Source: Anaerolineales bacterium (GTDB lineage: Bacteria; Chloroflexota; Anaerolineae; 4572-78; J111). From it: DNA of 30,249 bases. The stretch spans positions 1 through 30,249 of the forward strand of contig JAAUSP010000018.1 of assembly GCA_012032575.1 (NCBI GenBank). The letters are read 5' to 3'. Below, piece by piece: positions 95 to 4,890 of the stretch (within the stretch, counting starts at the first letter, position 1; every line of letters starts with the position of its first letter). The notes below the pieces were generated by a model. That model was not told the DNA's origin. It ran no database searches and saw only the letters and a program-made list of their open reading frames with translations. Position numbers and translations under genes: made by a program.

Positions 95-655
95 CTACTG
101 CCCTTCTCTCCGACAGACTGCTAGCAATTTACGCTCTAGCTGAGCCGGATAAGCTGGTTTGCTTTGGTAGTGGGTATCCTCAATGTCATCAATATGAATA
201 ACTCGCGGCTGGGCCTGACTGGTTCCGTGACGACAGGCTAAACTGGCCTCGGCGTAGGATAACGGAATGGACTCCAGGTCGGGATAATGATGGCCCAGCC
301 CGATTGTTACCGACAGGCCCAGCTTGCTAGAGAGGGTATGGTAGATAATATCACCTAGCTGCCGCATCTGGGCTACCACCGACCGCTCTGGATCGGTAGA
401 AACAATGGCTATTACCCGTTTAGGAGCACGAAAGCCAACCAAAAAAGTTTTGGTCTTACCGAACATATTGGGAGCAATCTCGGTAAACATTTCGGCCTCC
501 GGCCCCAGCGTTTCAAAACTGTCCACATCAGCCACCAGAACCGCAGGGCAGGATATGGTTTTGCCCAGGTGAGTTAGCGAAGTTTCAAGCGCTGCTTTAT
601 CCATATCTAAACCGTACACCAGCCGGTCAACCAGGCTGGTTTCAACTACAGGCAA
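95..655 (-). CDS. C-terminal part of a frameshifted YesN/AraC-type response regulator
   Basis: This reading frame continues the receiver domain encoded at 642-1085. Removing one base from the T7 run at 658-664 (A7 on the coding strand) joins the two parts as ...YLEKTLPVVETS. The 186 residues resemble the degenerate GGDEF-like middle domain of YesN-type regulators, e.g. the stretch SVTIGLGHHYPDLESIPLSY followed by ASLACR. The AraC-type helix-turn-helix that normally ends such proteins is missing. The frame stops at 95-97 and the remaining 94 bases to the window edge show no convincing HTH in any frame. The gene is therefore either truncated or the contig end is unreliable. It lies directly downstream of the PocR-domain kinase and should be its output partner. 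The family is fairly sure; integrity is doubtful. Confidence 0.6.
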   Translation of the reverse strand: MPVVETSLVDRLVYGLDMDKAALETSLTHLGKTISCPAVLVADVDSFETLGPEAEMFTEIAPNMFGKTKTFLVGFRAPKRVIAIVSTDPERSVVAQMRQLGDIIYHTLSSKLGLSVTIGLGHHYPDLESIPLSYAEASLACRHGTSQAQPRVIHIDDIEDTHYQSKPAYPAQLERKLLAVCRREGQ

Positions 656-1085
656 CGTTTTTTTCCAGATAACTTTTGGTTTCCACCACTTCCTGTAATT
701 GCTGCCGCTCTGCTTGAATTTGCTGATAAAGCTGGGTTAGAAGTTCGGTCAGTTTGGCCGGGCGAACGGGTTTGAGTAAATAATCAACGACGCCCAGTTT
801 TATTGCCCGCTGCACGTAAGGAAAATCATCATATGCGGTTAAAATGATAATTCGGGTGGCGGGGAGTTCGGCCCGGATCATGGTTGCGGCCTGTAACCCA
901 TCCAGGCCGGGCATTTTTATATCCATCAGCACCACGTCGGGAGTAGCCCGGCGCGCCAATTCAACCGCCTCCAGGCCACTGCTAGCCTCAATTATCGGGT
1001 AAAATTCCGAGTCGCTCTGGGCCACCACCCGCGCAATCGTTGAACGAATGAGGGGGGTATCATCAACAACTAATAAACCAGGCAT
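642..1085 (-). CDS. Response regulator receiver domain (partner of PocR-domain kinase), frameshifted
   Basis: CheY-like receiver of a LytS/YesN-type two-component system. The acidic pair is in VVDD near residues 7-9. The phospho-acceptor is D55 in VVLMDIKMPG, the switch Thr lies in ILTAYDD, and the conserved Lys is in YLLKPVRP near 105. I start it at the ATG at 1085, preceded by AGAGGA about 12 bases upstream on the coding strand. The longer frame back to a GTG at 1211 adds a low-complexity tail unlike any receiver. The frame runs off after YLEK because of an A7 tract (T7 at 658-664); one base fewer continues into the 95-655 part, about 329 residues in total. It follows the kinase by 125 bases and is probably co-transcribed with it under the cobalamin riboswitch. 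Confidence 0.85.
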   Translation of the reverse strand: MPGLLVVDDTPLIRSTIARVVAQSDSEFYPIIEASSGLEAVELARRATPDVVLMDIKMPGLDGLQAATMIRAELPATRIIILTAYDDFPYVQRAIKLGVVDYLLKPVRPAKLTELLTQLYQQIQAERQQLQEVVETKSYLEKNVACS

Positions 1086-1210
1086 GTTTGTGCGTTTCCT
1101 CTTGCTAAAAAAGCGAAAAAAGTCACTCGCCTGCCTGGAAGCTAACCTGGGGGGCGTTAAGGTTCTGGTTTCAAAACCAGTTTCCAGGAAGGTTGTTTGC
1201 CCAGGATTCA

Positions 1211-2458
1211 CTATCCGAGCGATCTCCCATTGTCAAGTGCTAAAAACAGCATGATCCGGCAGCCTCGCTCAGGTGCGCTTTCCACCCGGAAGTCAAAATT
1301 GTGGTTGTATTCCCCTTCCAACCGTCGAACCACACTCTGCAAACCCAGGGCGGGTCTTTTGCGATACGCCGGGGTGATGAACAGCCGGCTGTTCAGTGTG
1401 GTTACCTGAGTTTCATCCATACCCACCCCATCATCCGACACTTCCAGCAAGATATGGTTATCTTCGCGTACTACCCTTACTTTTACCGTCACTGACCGCA
1501 GTGAAGGTTCAACCGCATGAACAATAGCATTTTCCACCAAAGGCTGGAGCAGCATACAGGGCACTTGCAGATGTTGCAGTGCAGGGTCTAGCTCAATATG
1601 TTTATTAAGGCGATTACCAAAACGGATTTGCTGAATGGTCAGATAACGGTCAATCATTTCTACTTCTTCGCTCAAAGGCACCATCAACGCGGTGTTACGC
1701 AAACTGTAACGCAGCAAATCACTCAAGGTGTAGGCTATTTCTTCCGTGCGGGGAGCATTCTCTTCCAGGGCGGTATAACCCACCAGGGTCAACGAATTAA
1801 ATAAAAAGTGCGGATTAATTTGGGATTGCAAGGCACGCAGTTGGGCATGTTGCAGGGCAGCCTGCATGGCCGCTTTTTCTTGTGCCTCTTTAAGTAGCCG
1901 GGCCTGGGTTAAATTGGCCATACCGATTTCAACAATATGATTGGCCGTTAGCATGAGCATCTCTACGGCGGCGTCAAGGCGCTCGCGGGGAATGGCCGGA
2001 ATTTGATGGGCGGCGTGTAATAACTGATCGCGCGGCAAATCCAGTGATATATTGCGAGTTACAATGTCTTTGACAAATTCATCACGATCTTCGGTTAAGA
2101 TTACCTGTCCGCATAACAGGCAGCCAATATATTCATTTTCAATGGTAATAGGGGCGGCCACATCCATCAATCCGCCCAAACAAACATAAGCCTCCGGTTT
2201 ATCGGAGTAATGCGCTGCCAATCCGCCCCGGGCGTCACATTCTTTGCAGCGGGCCAAACCAGTGGGGGTCGAGCGGATCATCTGGCAGATGGGTTGAAAA
2301 TTACTACTGCGGGTGATCGGTGTCCCGATTTTATTCACGGTAACCGCAGCCACGCCCATCGCTTTTGAAAACGTATCCTGAATGCGTTGTAATACCTTGA
2401 GGTCAACAATATCCTCAATGCCTGGATTGTGGGCAGTTACTGCCTCAATAGTTTCCAT
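1211..2458 (-). CDS. PocR-domain sensor histidine kinase (LytS/YesM type)
   Basis: 415-residue soluble histidine kinase with no membrane segment. Residues about 20-175 match the PocR ligand-binding domain and carry cysteines at C58, C71, C74 (RCKEC), C93, C113 and C116 (CLLC). These could bind metal or respond to redox. A short helical linker leads to a His_kinase domain with phospho-acceptor H217 in QINPHFLFNSL. A HATPase domain follows, with the N box LVENAIVHA (about 307-315) and G box DDGVGMD (about 342-348). The PocR domain is named after the Salmonella regulator of propanediol and cobalamin genes; in Chloroflexi and Firmicutes it is often fused to kinases. The start ATG at 2458 follows a strong GGGGAGG site. 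The leader carries a cobalamin riboswitch and a terminator, so expression is expected to fall when B12 is plentiful. The ligand of this kinase is unknown. Confidence 0.9.
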   Translation of the reverse strand: METIEAVTAHNPGIEDIVDLKVLQRIQDTFSKAMGVAAVTVNKIGTPITRSSNFQPICQMIRSTPTGLARCKECDARGGLAAHYSDKPEAYVCLGGLMDVAAPITIENEYIGCLLCGQVILTEDRDEFVKDIVTRNISLDLPRDQLLHAAHQIPAIPRERLDAAVEMLMLTANHIVEIGMANLTQARLLKEAQEKAAMQAALQHAQLRALQSQINPHFLFNSLTLVGYTALEENAPRTEEIAYTLSDLLRYSLRNTALMVPLSEEVEMIDRYLTIQQIRFGNRLNKHIELDPALQHLQVPCMLLQPLVENAIVHAVEPSLRSVTVKVRVVREDNHILLEVSDDGVGMDETQVTTLNSRLFITPAYRKRPALGLQSVVRRLEGEYNHNFDFRVESAPERGCRIMLFLALDNGRSLG

Positions 2459-2483
2459 ACCTTAGCCTCCCCTGGTAAAAATA

Positions 2484-2521
2484 AAAAAAGGAATGACCAA
2501 ATTAAGTGGTCATTCCCTTTT
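2484..2521 (-). terminator. Intrinsic terminator of the riboswitch expression platform, just before the kinase gene
   Basis: On the minus strand GGAATGACCA pairs perfectly with TGGTCATTCC (+ strand arms 2490-2499 and 2507-2516) across a 7-nt loop. T7, A and T5 follow. The hairpin ends about 25 bases before the kinase start codon and lies in its leader. It is therefore best read as the regulated terminator of the upstream cobalamin riboswitch, not the end of another gene. An upstream TTTCCC on the transcript could pair with the GGGAAT of the stem as part of an antiterminator; that is inference. Confidence 0.85.
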
Positions 2522-2546
2522 CACACGAGGGAAATATCCCATTATC

Positions 2547-2740
2547 TCAGCAAAAACGGGGGGTCTGGCTTAGTTTAACACCAAACTATACAAATAGGAT
2601 TGCGGATAGGGGAGTGGGTTTAGTGAAAACTTTACAGTTGCGGGACAGCGCTGGAATTCTGACCTCACGGTCAGTCACCTGACTTCACCCTTTACCTCTC
2701 GTCTTCCACAAGAACTGACAAGACGTGCGCCTTTGCCTGA
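2547..2740 (-). promoter_or_regulatory. Cobalamin (B12) riboswitch aptamer
   Basis: Read on the minus strand, the leader contains the conserved cobalamin-riboswitch core: an AAAGGGTGAAGTCAGGTG segment, then GAATTCC, then GCGCTGTCCCGCAACTGTAA (+ strand about 2632-2651). The 3' B12-box-like AAGCCAGACCCCCC follows (+ strand about 2557-2571). A closing P1 stem can be drawn between TCAG(G)CAAA (+ strand 2732-2740) and TTTGCTGA (+ strand 2547-2554). Internal hairpins CGTCTT...AAGACG and CTGACC-GTGA-GGTCAG fit the peripheral stems. A terminator lies just downstream and a good sigma70-type promoter upstream. The usual genes behind this RNA are B12 uptake or synthesis genes or B12-independent isozymes; here it precedes a PocR-domain kinase. 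Confidence 0.9.
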
Positions 2741-2769
2741 TTCAATTTGTTATTTTCTTTTAGACAGAA

Positions 2770-2821
2770 TTAACAGGATTTTACATGATGGTATACCAAT
2801 TTAGCCTGTAAATCCTGTTAA
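2770..2821. repeat. Imperfect 15-16 bp inverted repeat in the riboswitch leader
   Basis: TTAACAGGATTTTACA (2770-2785) and TGTAAATCCTGTTAA (2807-2821) form a stem with a single bulged T around a 21-nt loop. It sits between the promoter and the cobalamin aptamer, so it would be transcribed in the 5' leader. The TTAACAGGATTTACAGG-like arm resembles dispersed intergenic repeats. No function can be read from the sequence. Confidence 0.6.
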
Positions 2822-2879
2822 ATACTTTAGGTAAAACTCATAAGTTAGTTCTGAAAAAGACATTATTACCAATGGTCAA

Positions 2880-2908
2880 ACTATATTATAGTCGGAATTT
2901 TTTGTCAA
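2880..2908 (-). promoter_or_regulatory. Sigma70-type promoter for the riboswitch-PocR kinase operon
   Basis: On the minus strand TTGACA (+ 2903-2908), a 17-bp spacer and TATAGT (+ 2880-2885) make a near-consensus promoter. An overlapping TATAAT five bases closer to the -35 is an alternative -10 with a short spacer. Transcription starting near 2873 would give an approximately 415-nt leader holding the inverted repeat, the B12 aptamer and the terminator. Confidence 0.6.
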
Positions 2909-3215
2909 AATCTGGTCCAGTACCAGCAGTAATTCTCCGTATGGCTAAAAAACAGTAGGCTGATGATGCAGACCGTTAGCGATTAGCCCAGATAAGTTGA
3001 AGATTTGTCCGGTTGGCAACAGGCTTGAGCTTTGACCCACCTAACCATTGTGTGCGTTTTGATTTAGAGAATGTGGTGCAATCTATACAAATGAGGGAGG
3101 AAATTCTTAAAAAACTGTATGCCAGATGGGTAATGGTAAAAGAGTAAAAAATAGTTCCTTTGCTTTGACACAGGTTTAGTTCGAATCCCGTCGAGGGCAT
3201 GATGTCTCAAATAGA
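2909..3215. other. Non-coding stretch with a tRNA 3'-end fragment at 3180-3200
   Basis: No convincing gene is seen here. At 3180-3200 (+ strand) the sequence GTTCGAATCCCGTCGAGGGCA has the form of the T-loop, 3' T-stem strand and acceptor 3' strand of a tRNA. The expected 5' T-stem strand (CGGG) and a matching GCCCTCG 5' acceptor strand are absent upstream. Only the last ~20 bases of a tRNA gene are present, as at an integration or recombination junction. A short ATG frame at about 3090-3147 (MREEILKKLY...) is not recognisable. Confidence 0.45.
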
Positions 3216-3246
3216 CTCGATCCTAACCGGGATCGAGTTTTTGTTT
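3216..3246 (+). terminator. Intrinsic terminator behind the tRNA fragment
   Basis: ACTCGATCC (3216-3224) pairs with GGATCGAGT (3231-3239), followed by TTTTTGTTTT. It is correctly placed to end a tRNA transcript whose 3' end lies at about 3200, or transcription coming from upstream before the substrate-binding-protein gene. Confidence 0.8.
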
Positions 3247-3360: not shown

Positions 3361-4890
3361 ATGAAAAATTTAATCCAAGTGTTGCTATTATCAGTCTTAT
3401 TAATGTTGACCTCCTCAGCGGCTCTGGCTCAAGAAGAAGTGACCTGCCAATCCGATGCGATTGTGCAAAGGGATGATTGGCTTTCGAAATTGGCCGACAA
3501 ATTTTGGGATGATCCAACCGCCTATCCCATTATTGCCGAGGCCACCAATGCCAAAAATGCGCTCGATCCCAGTTATGCCAGGATTGATGATGTGAATTTT
3601 ATTGATGTCGGCTGGAAATTGTGCATCCCCGGTTCACCCACACAGATCGGTTCGACCGAAGATACTCCAGCGCCGATTGTTCTCAAAGTATGGGACATCT
3701 GGAGCGCCGCTGGGGAGAGTCAGGTTATTGAAACCCTCAACCGTGAATTTGAAGCAGATCACCCCGGCGTCGAAATCCGGCGCACTGCCAAAACTATCGT
3801 CAATATGCAGGCTACCGCTCGCCCCGCGCTTGGCAACCCCGATGGCCCGGATATTGTGCAGGTTAATCCCGGCCGGTCGGACATGGCCGCGCTGGTGGCC
3901 GCCGGTCTGCTGGCCGATTTGACCCCCTATTGGCGTGAGTATGGCTGGGCCGATCGCTTCCCTGCGCCGCTGGCAGCCCGCAACCGCGTTCTGGCTGATG
4001 GCTCGGCTTATGGCCGGGGCAATCTCTATGGTCTGGCCCCCACCGCCGAATTGGTAGGTGTGTTTTATAACAAAAATAAATTCGCTGCGGCTGACATCGC
4101 TGTGCCAACCAGCCTGGCCGAATTTGAAGACGTGATGGCAGCCCTCAAAGCCACCGGGGAAACCCCACTCATGCTTGGCAACCTGGACGGGTGGCCGGCC
4201 CTCCATCTTTACGGCGAAATCCAAAATGCCTATATCAATGATCCCACCTATCTGGCAGATTTAATTTATGGCCGGGGTCAGGTTAGCTTTGATGAGACGA
4301 CGGCTGAGCAGGCTGCCGCCAAATACAAAGAATGGATTGACCAGGGCTATTTTCTGCCCGACTTTAACGGTCTGACTTTTGACGAAGTGTGGCAGCAGTT
4401 TAATGACGATCAGGGAGCTATGTTAATCAGTGGAAGCTGGTTGAGCAGTGATTTGCAGGCCGGACCCAACGGGTCTGATTTTGGCTTTTTCTTGCTGCCG
4501 CCCCTGGCTCAAGGGGGCGAAAAATTGACCCTCGCCGGCGCTTCGGCTACTTATGCCATTCGACAAGGGTCGGCCAACACCGAGGTGGCGGCTGAGTATA
4601 TTGACTGGATGATGTCGGACAGAGCAATGGAATTGTGGCAGCAGACCGGCCTGATACCGGTCGTGCCAATTGACTCCGGCCCAGCCGAGCCGGGTCTTCA
4701 GGCGGATATAAACGCGGCCTGGGCGCAGTTGGTCCAGGAGAAGCGCATCGGAAATTATCTCGATTGGGCCACGCCCACTCTCTACAACACTCTGGCTGTC
4801 TCGTTGCAAGAACTGGGCGATGGCCGGATTTCCCCCGAAGAATTCGCCCGGAAACTCCAAGACGACTACGCCGCTTTTCAGGCTCAATAA
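3361..4890 (+). CDS. Extracellular ABC-transporter substrate-binding protein (family 1, sugar type) with N-terminal LysM-like domain
   Basis: 509 residues. A signal peptide of about 23 residues ends in AALA before QEE, with no lipobox. Residues about 33-90 (VQRDDWLSKLADKFWDDPTA... to LCIP) look like a divergent LysM, which could hold the protein to cell-wall glycan. From about 104 to the end it has the family-1 solute-binding fold (WDIWSAAGESQVIETLNREF, later FYNKNKF and GAMLISGSW), typical of oligosaccharide importers. The start has a strong GGAGG site 6 bases upstream. No permease or ATPase for import is nearby; the ABC genes downstream are an ABC-2 exporter on the other strand. The protein must therefore use transport partners encoded elsewhere. 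A small palindrome, AACCAT-AA-ATGGTT at 3287-3300, lies upstream and could be an operator. Confidence 0.9.
   Translation: MKNLIQVLLLSVLLMLTSSAALAQEEVTCQSDAIVQRDDWLSKLADKFWDDPTAYPIIAEATNAKNALDPSYARIDDVNFIDVGWKLCIPGSPTQIGSTEDTPAPIVLKVWDIWSAAGESQVIETLNREFEADHPGVEIRRTAKTIVNMQATARPALGNPDGPDIVQVNPGRSDMAALVAAGLLADLTPYWREYGWADRFPAPLAARNRVLADGSAYGRGNLYGLAPTAELVGVFYNKNKFAAADIAVPTSLAEFEDVMAALKATGETPLMLGNLDGWPALHLYGEIQNAYINDPTYLADLIYGRGQVSFDETTAEQAAAKYKEWIDQGYFLPDFNGLTFDEVWQQFNDDQGAMLISGSWLSSDLQAGPNGSDFGFFLLPPLAQGGEKLTLAGASATYAIRQGSANTEVAAEYIDWMMSDRAMELWQQTGLIPVVPIDSGPAEPGLQADINAAWAQLVQEKRIGNYLDWATPTLYNTLAVSLQELGDGRISPEEFARKLQDDYAAFQAQ

Follow-up and report, generated by a model that had tools for sequence, protein, structure and literature searches.

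The minus strand of the window (the whole 30,249-nucleotide stretch of DNA analysed here) carries a gene for a sensor kinase, preceded by a leader in which a promoter-like site, a stretch resembling a cobalamin riboswitch aptamer and an intrinsic terminator follow one another up to the ATG (Table 1). The kinase consists of PocR (PF10114, 165.7 bits), His_kinase (PF06580, 92.1 bits) and HATPase_c (PF02518, 43.3 bits) domains, all above their cut-offs. Its closest named relative (P0003, 85% identity) is a "PocR ligand-binding domain-containing protein [Anaerolineae bacterium]"; the kinase P0002 is 86% identical.

The kinase gene is followed by a partner gene encoding a receiver domain, and the two-component system described in the first-pass annotation is borne out by Pfam, with a partner that is frameshifted and incomplete in this contig. 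The receiver frame ends just past an A7 run (within 666-651), and another frame, with a GGDEF_2 domain, carries on to a stop 94 nt short of the contig end; the AraC part is missing. Two regulators of relatives (L122 and L136) have receiver, GGDEF_2 and AraC parts in one frame, while those of other relatives are receiver-AraC proteins. A programmed -1 frameshift was rejected: the slippery sequence A AAA AAC is present, but the continuing frame is +1. Frame breaks also divide other genes of the contig: Pfam identifies MetG and a histidine phosphatase among them, NCBIfam and Pfam identify FolC, and TrkH and a glycosyltransferase are recognized by position. Assembly indels are likely in this contig and may also touch the leader. 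No diol dehydratase or microcompartment genes were found among the window ORFs scanned (batches of 4, 10 and 10 proteins, two scanned twice; 76 ORFs are listed, many of them overlapping), and the contig ends 1.2 kb past the kinase.

Divergent from the kinase operon lies a gene for a sugar-type ABC solute-binding protein (3361-4890, plus strand), which the two-component system may control. At 3170-3240 on the plus strand, TTCGAATCCCGTCGAGGGCA followed by a 12-pair terminator resembles the 3' end of a tRNA or tmRNA. ARAGORN found no tRNA near 3180, and the matching TGCCCTC is absent from the plus strand; the element is perhaps the remnant of an insertion site.

The leader parts named in the first-pass annotation are real, with their coordinates and strand. 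The promoter-like site is one of four in 1 kb, against 1.8 (sd 1.6) expected in shuffles, and the other three match the consensus at 9 of 12 positions each, compared with 11 at 2908-2880. Both the aptamer core word GCGCTGTCCCGCAACTGTAA and the B12 box word AAGCCAGACC are present, and the terminator ends 25 nt before the kinase ATG at 2458. The perfect inverted repeat between promoter and aptamer could be an operator.

Table 1. Coordinates of the kinase operon and the elements of its leader
Feature	Position	Strand	Evidence
Promoter-like site, TTGACA-17-TATAGT	2880..2908	-	11/12 consensus matches
Perfect 12-nt inverted repeat	2770..2821	-	hairpin -15.7 kcal/mol; 0/200 shuffles equal
Cobalamin-riboswitch-like aptamer	2541..2746	-	RF00174 21.8 bits; R1 36.3 bits; helices checked pair by pair
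P1	2737-2728 x 2558-2549	-	10/10 pairs
P2	2725-2720 x 2705-2700	-	6/6 pairs
Extra hairpin in P3 loop	2674-2669 x 2664-2659	-	6 pairs, GUGA cap
Core GCGCTGTCCCGCAACTGTAA	2651-2632	-	occurs once in minus strand
P5	2631-2627 x 2576-2572 and 2625-2618 x 2586-2579	-	5 + 8 pairs
B12 box	2571-2560	-	AAGCCAGACC at 2571-2562, once in minus strand
Candidate antiterminator, UUCCCU 2533-2528 x AGGGAA 2518-2513 plus UGG 2541-2539 x CCA 2509-2507	2507..2541	-	inferred from helix list and nascent-RNA pairing probabilities
Hairpin GGGA-UAUU-UCCC, competitor of the antiterminator	2540-2529	-	helix list, nascent-RNA pairing
Intrinsic terminator, 16-pair stem, 7-nt loop, U tract	2484..2522	-	-20.4 kcal/mol, z -6.3; 0/200 shuffles equal
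Shine-Dalgarno-like AGGGGAG of kinase gene	2467..2473	-	complementary to CUCCCCU 2614-2608 in L5
PocR-His_kinase-HATPase_c sensor kinase, 415 aa	1211..2458	-	Pfam
Receiver domain of partner gene	642..1211	-	PF00072, 101 bits
Partner continuation in another frame, GGDEF_2	95..655	-	PF17853, 30.2 bits

Homology of the leader to cobalamin riboswitches

Rfam at curated thresholds gave no matches in the full window. The first-pass annotation had held that the lack of an RF00174 hit above threshold would refute a cobalamin riboswitch, and the covariance scan of the leader does fall under the gathering score of 31.5, at 21.8 bits. At relaxed thresholds, with E-values calculated over all 4227 families, RF00174 is the top-ranked match of the leader (E 0.0029 in 961 nt, 0.092 in the full window).

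Related genomes were picked by their identity to the MetG fragment of the window and are presumably Chloroflexota. Among 386 genomes, the highest identities were 54% (G314), 53% (G454) and then 50% (G583), and within the class 84 of 111 members had matches at E<=1e-150, the best being G1403 at 59%. A search of 29 related genomes with RF00174, in which 60 candidates were scored per genome, gave matches in 28, or 63 in total at E<=0.1: 52 above the curated cut-off and 11 below. Two of these 11 (18-19 bits) may be chance, and at least four (L269, L270, L271 and L273) have the core, the box and a downstream motif characteristic of the lineage. The curated threshold thus overlooks real elements in the lineage of the window.

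A lineage model, R1, was made from 24 of the 30 riboswitch loci returned from related genomes (alignment A3, 24 rows). It has 148 positions and 14 pairs and therefore consists mostly of sequence, and the E-values of such models are rough. R1 matches the leader at 2734-2538 on the minus strand with 36.3 bits (E 4.7e-9), the sole match up to E 10 in the window. In a control set of 100 loci (1,256,133 bases), R1 had four matches at E-values of 10 or less: a true riboswitch, L168, at 59.3 bits, followed by matches of 15.5, 9.3 and 8.5 bits.

It is very improbable that the leader contains no riboswitch and resembles one in its core words by chance. The RF00174 score under the gathering score fits such a reading, as does the outcome of searching viral contigs for the bare core words and gap: 72 stretches were found, only L168 being a riboswitch by eye, and the words were given up as a search tool. 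However, the R1 score of the leader lies far above every non-riboswitch control match, and the best of the 19 control loci that are chance core-word stretches (L139-L157) reached 15.5 bits. Homology is secure despite the missed curated threshold, and the leader is best described as a divergent homologue of cobalamin riboswitches, outside curated RF00174 membership. The earlier assignment to this class, with a terminator as its platform, is upheld in that form.

The likeness to RF00174 (clan CL00101) extends to the core, P1, P2, P5, the position of the B12 box and the downstream terminator; the leader differs in its score below the cut-off, an insert in P3, an altered B12 box and its place before a sensor kinase. 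The conserved core CCCGCAACTGTAA is present together with P1 and P5, and the P5 fold has an energy of -10.4 kcal/mol (z -3.2; 1 of 200 shuffles equal). The stretch UCCAGCGCUGUCCCGCAACUGUAA (2655-2632) is one letter off the UCCAGCGCUGUGCCGCAACUGUAA of related riboswitches, and over UCCAGCGCUGU-CCGCAACUGUAA one of 24 letters is changed relative to elements such as L253 and L254.

There are two departures. The first is a 16-nt hairpin inserted in P3, the base of which is weak and has a mismatch. The second is the B12 box. All 24 rows of A3 have AG[CT]C, 5-6 nt and purine-CC, a pattern absent from the window, and the spacing is 5 nt in all 12 legible boxes (18 were parsed of 38 loci). The window has AGCC-AG-ACC-CCC, which the RF00174 alignment treats as a deletion, with 2 nt after AGCC; R1 aligns this box gaplessly but with C at conserved purines. 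Because of the P3 insert with its weak base and the altered box, cobalamin binding is not assured.

These same departures would be expected if the aptamer is homologous but decayed and no longer binds cobalamin. The terminator would then attenuate the decaying two-component operon constitutively, or else the defects would be assembly errors. The sub-threshold RF00174 score, the frameshifted and incomplete partner gene and the other split genes of the contig point the same way. However, the kinase frame is intact and keeps the residues that are invariant among 31 homologues; P1, P2, P5, the core and the terminator are likewise intact, and the frame breaks are spread all over the contig, as expected of assembly errors. 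Decay of the riboswitch is considered unlikely, but it deserves serious weight.

Expression platform and direction of switching

The terminator provides the leader with an expression platform. P1 does not overlap it. Upstream of the terminator lie a candidate antiterminator and a small hairpin that competes with it (Table 1). According to the nascent-RNA pairing calculations, the antiterminator has a probability of 0.41-0.73 at 3' ends 2512-2496. From 2487 onwards the terminator prevails in both computed states, and any switching would need to be kinetic.

The leader is probably a divergent cobalamin riboswitch that works as a transcription attenuator, an OFF switch, of the PocR-kinase/response-regulator operon. 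The firm parts of this reading are the aptamer homology, the terminator, the order of promoter, aptamer, terminator and gene, and the domains of the gene products; the switching steps we infer. When cobalamin is scarce, the nascent RNA would make the UUCCCU/AGGGAA antiterminator, extended by UGG/CCA, and RNA polymerase would go on into the kinase. Cobalamin binding would favour the GGGA-UAUU-UCCC hairpin; the terminator would form and the sensor would not be made. The PocR domain would report a small organic molecule, and in this way the amount of sensor would be set by B12 and its activity by the substrate. The two-layer circuit proposed in the first-pass annotation, in which B12 sets the level of a sensor and PocR senses a second signal, would take this form.

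The published description of cobalamin riboswitches is that of OFF switches (PMC11477304). An OFF sign is sensible if the system turns on genes for making or importing B12 or for a route that spares it, and it counts in favour of this reading that PocR of Listeria turns on cob genes in addition to pdu genes (PMC8079631). The sign is surprising if the sensed pathway depends on B12, as B12 is permissive for the regulator in both Listeria and Enterococcus (PMC9943018, PMC7602753, PMC8079631).

That permissive logic would be matched by an ON switch. Here, once cobalamin is bound, L5 (2600-2593, AUCCUAUU) would pair with 2543-2536 (AAUGGGAU) and block the GGGA/UCCC hairpin. UUCCCU would then be free to form the antiterminator, and the kinase would be made only with B12. 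The two segments are a candidate pairing, an 8-bp complement of -6.8 kcal/mol, and holding 2543-2536 raises the antiterminator probability to 0.86-0.91 over the same 3' ends. However, the terminator still wins once the 3' end reaches 2487, and an ON sign departs from the published description of the class. An ON switch is improbable. If it were real, B12, as the cofactor of the sensed pathway, would control a two-component system directly and permissively in cis.

A kissing loop between L5 and the Shine-Dalgarno-like sequence of the kinase gene was also considered and rejected; it has 7 bp, a length equalled in 233 of 2000 dinucleotide-shuffled versions of L5, and is not significant. A possible 10-codon ORF (2542-2510, minus strand) starts with an ATG at 2542 and ends in the 5' arm of the terminator with a TGA at 2512-2510. 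Its AAGGGAATGACC resembles the AAGGAGG..ATGACC of leader ORFs in relatives, but as it is without a good Shine-Dalgarno sequence, it is perhaps due to chance.

The leader ORFs of relatives belong to a shared platform. DNA downstream of the riboswitch was surveyed at 29 loci (L246-L275 without L272) from Chloroflexota-like genomes. A motif, CTCG[A/C]G..AAGGAGG, was found by pattern match at 21 of them; the platform also has a hairpin, CCUU-CUCGAGCC-AAGG, the 3' arm of which is a Shine-Dalgarno sequence. Next comes, at 19 of the 29 loci, an ORF no longer than 40 codons, such as MTRAP or VTRCASSQ, and a scan placed an intrinsic terminator within 300 nt at 18. Six elements of a long type (L246-L251) have none of these features. 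The pattern suggests B12-gated leader-peptide attenuation, for which the interplay of a uORF and a B12 riboswitch in M. tuberculosis offers a comparison (PMC11260477).

PocR kinases and cobalamin control elsewhere

Kinase matches at E<=0.001 occur in 169 of 199 genomes near a Frackibacter genome, many in the kinase half only. Loci of up to 18 kb were collected around 20 of the 21 best kinases (35-39% identity). B12-dependent diol dehydratase is represented by its large subunit, PduC, in 15 of these 20 loci, with examples identified by Pfam, and shell proteins are encoded in 14. PocR-domain kinases have also been described in PDU1D loci (PMC4207490) and, in one case, beside corrinoid methyltransferase genes (PMC9768040). 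Judging by these gene neighbourhoods, PocR-kinases are linked to B12 metabolism. The first-pass annotation had suggested a diol, a corrinoid or a B12-dependent substrate as the signal of the PocR domain; for a diol or a B12-dependent substrate, the diol dehydratase loci strengthen the case, which stays a suggestion for this kinase.

The arrangement seen in the window was found nowhere else among the loci examined. No cobalamin riboswitch reached gathering thresholds in the kinase flanks (mostly 1.5 kb) of the 20 loci or of 12 further ones, two of which are repeats and one of which (L118) matches in the kinase half only. Within 1.5 kb of 30 distinct PocR/His_kinase loci there was none by curated thresholds or by R1. 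RF00174 matches were present elsewhere in all 20 of the relatives' genomes searched. Over 50 loci, representing 30 distinct places, R1 found a riboswitch only in L120 (85.9 bits by RF00174). It heads a B12-uptake operon with genes for Peripla_BP_2, FecCD, an ABC ATPase, a TonB receptor and two tetrapyrrole methylases, with the PocR-kinase, regulator and pdu genes 7.4 kb downstream of the riboswitch, all on the same strand. As a separate observation, a c-di-GMP-II riboswitch (58.8 bits; L107 1058-1142, minus strand, which equals L001 7552-7636) lies upstream of a PocR-kinase in a Frackibacter genome, on the strand opposite to that of the kinase gene.

Kinases closer to that of the window were sought in several collections. 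A kinase profile scan of genome contigs, swamped by a generic kinase motif, had no Chloroflexota title among 80 loci, and that of viral contigs gave none. Plasmid matches had 29-37% identity among the best 20 of 345 matched records. No kinase was found in 400 genomes of the phylum of G314 (E<=1e-90, at most four candidates scored per genome in the 20 rows shown), in 61 of the order of G1403 (E<=1e-30) or in 398 of the Shewanella phylum (E<=1e-60); each of these searches is without a positive genome and by itself shows nothing.

Cobalamin riboswitch regulons are generally grouped under B12 synthesis, transport of B12 or its precursors, cobalt transport and isozymes (PMC3766115). Several known systems share parts of the arrangement. 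In Listeria, control of a PocR-domain regulator by a cobalamin riboswitch runs through AspocR (PMC9943018, PMC8079631). AspocR is an antisense RNA with which B12 permits PocR, whereas the element in the window is on the sense strand, at the 5' end before a kinase, and has the opposite expected sign. EutX and Rli55 also connect a B12 riboswitch with a two-component system (PMC7602753, PMC8079631), but there a trans-acting RNA sequesters the EutV response regulator, while the leader described here would act in cis on the kinase mRNA.

A cis-acting, sense-strand case is Streptomyces nrdABS, an operon under a cobalamin riboswitch that includes the AraC-like regulator NrdS; its lead genes encode ribonucleotide reductase, and it is without a sensor kinase (PMC4991794). 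The CmrRST operon of C. difficile is a two-component operon under a riboswitch of another class, with c-di-GMP as the ligand (PMC11477304, PMC7602753). In gene order, a PocR-kinase followed by a receiver-type partner is found in PDU1D loci and in the 1,3-propanediol operon of C. butyricum (PMC4207490), as in the Bacillota-type loci collected here. The window differs from PDU1D-type loci in that no diol dehydratase was seen among its scanned ORFs, and the collected loci are without a cobalamin riboswitch directly before the kinase.

The literature searched offered no sense-strand cobalamin riboswitch placed immediately upstream of a sensor kinase; this is weak evidence, as subscription papers mostly fell outside the search. 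If a sensor kinase is controlled in cis, B12 status would stand upstream of signalling, a logic unlike that of AspocR and of EutX and Rli55.
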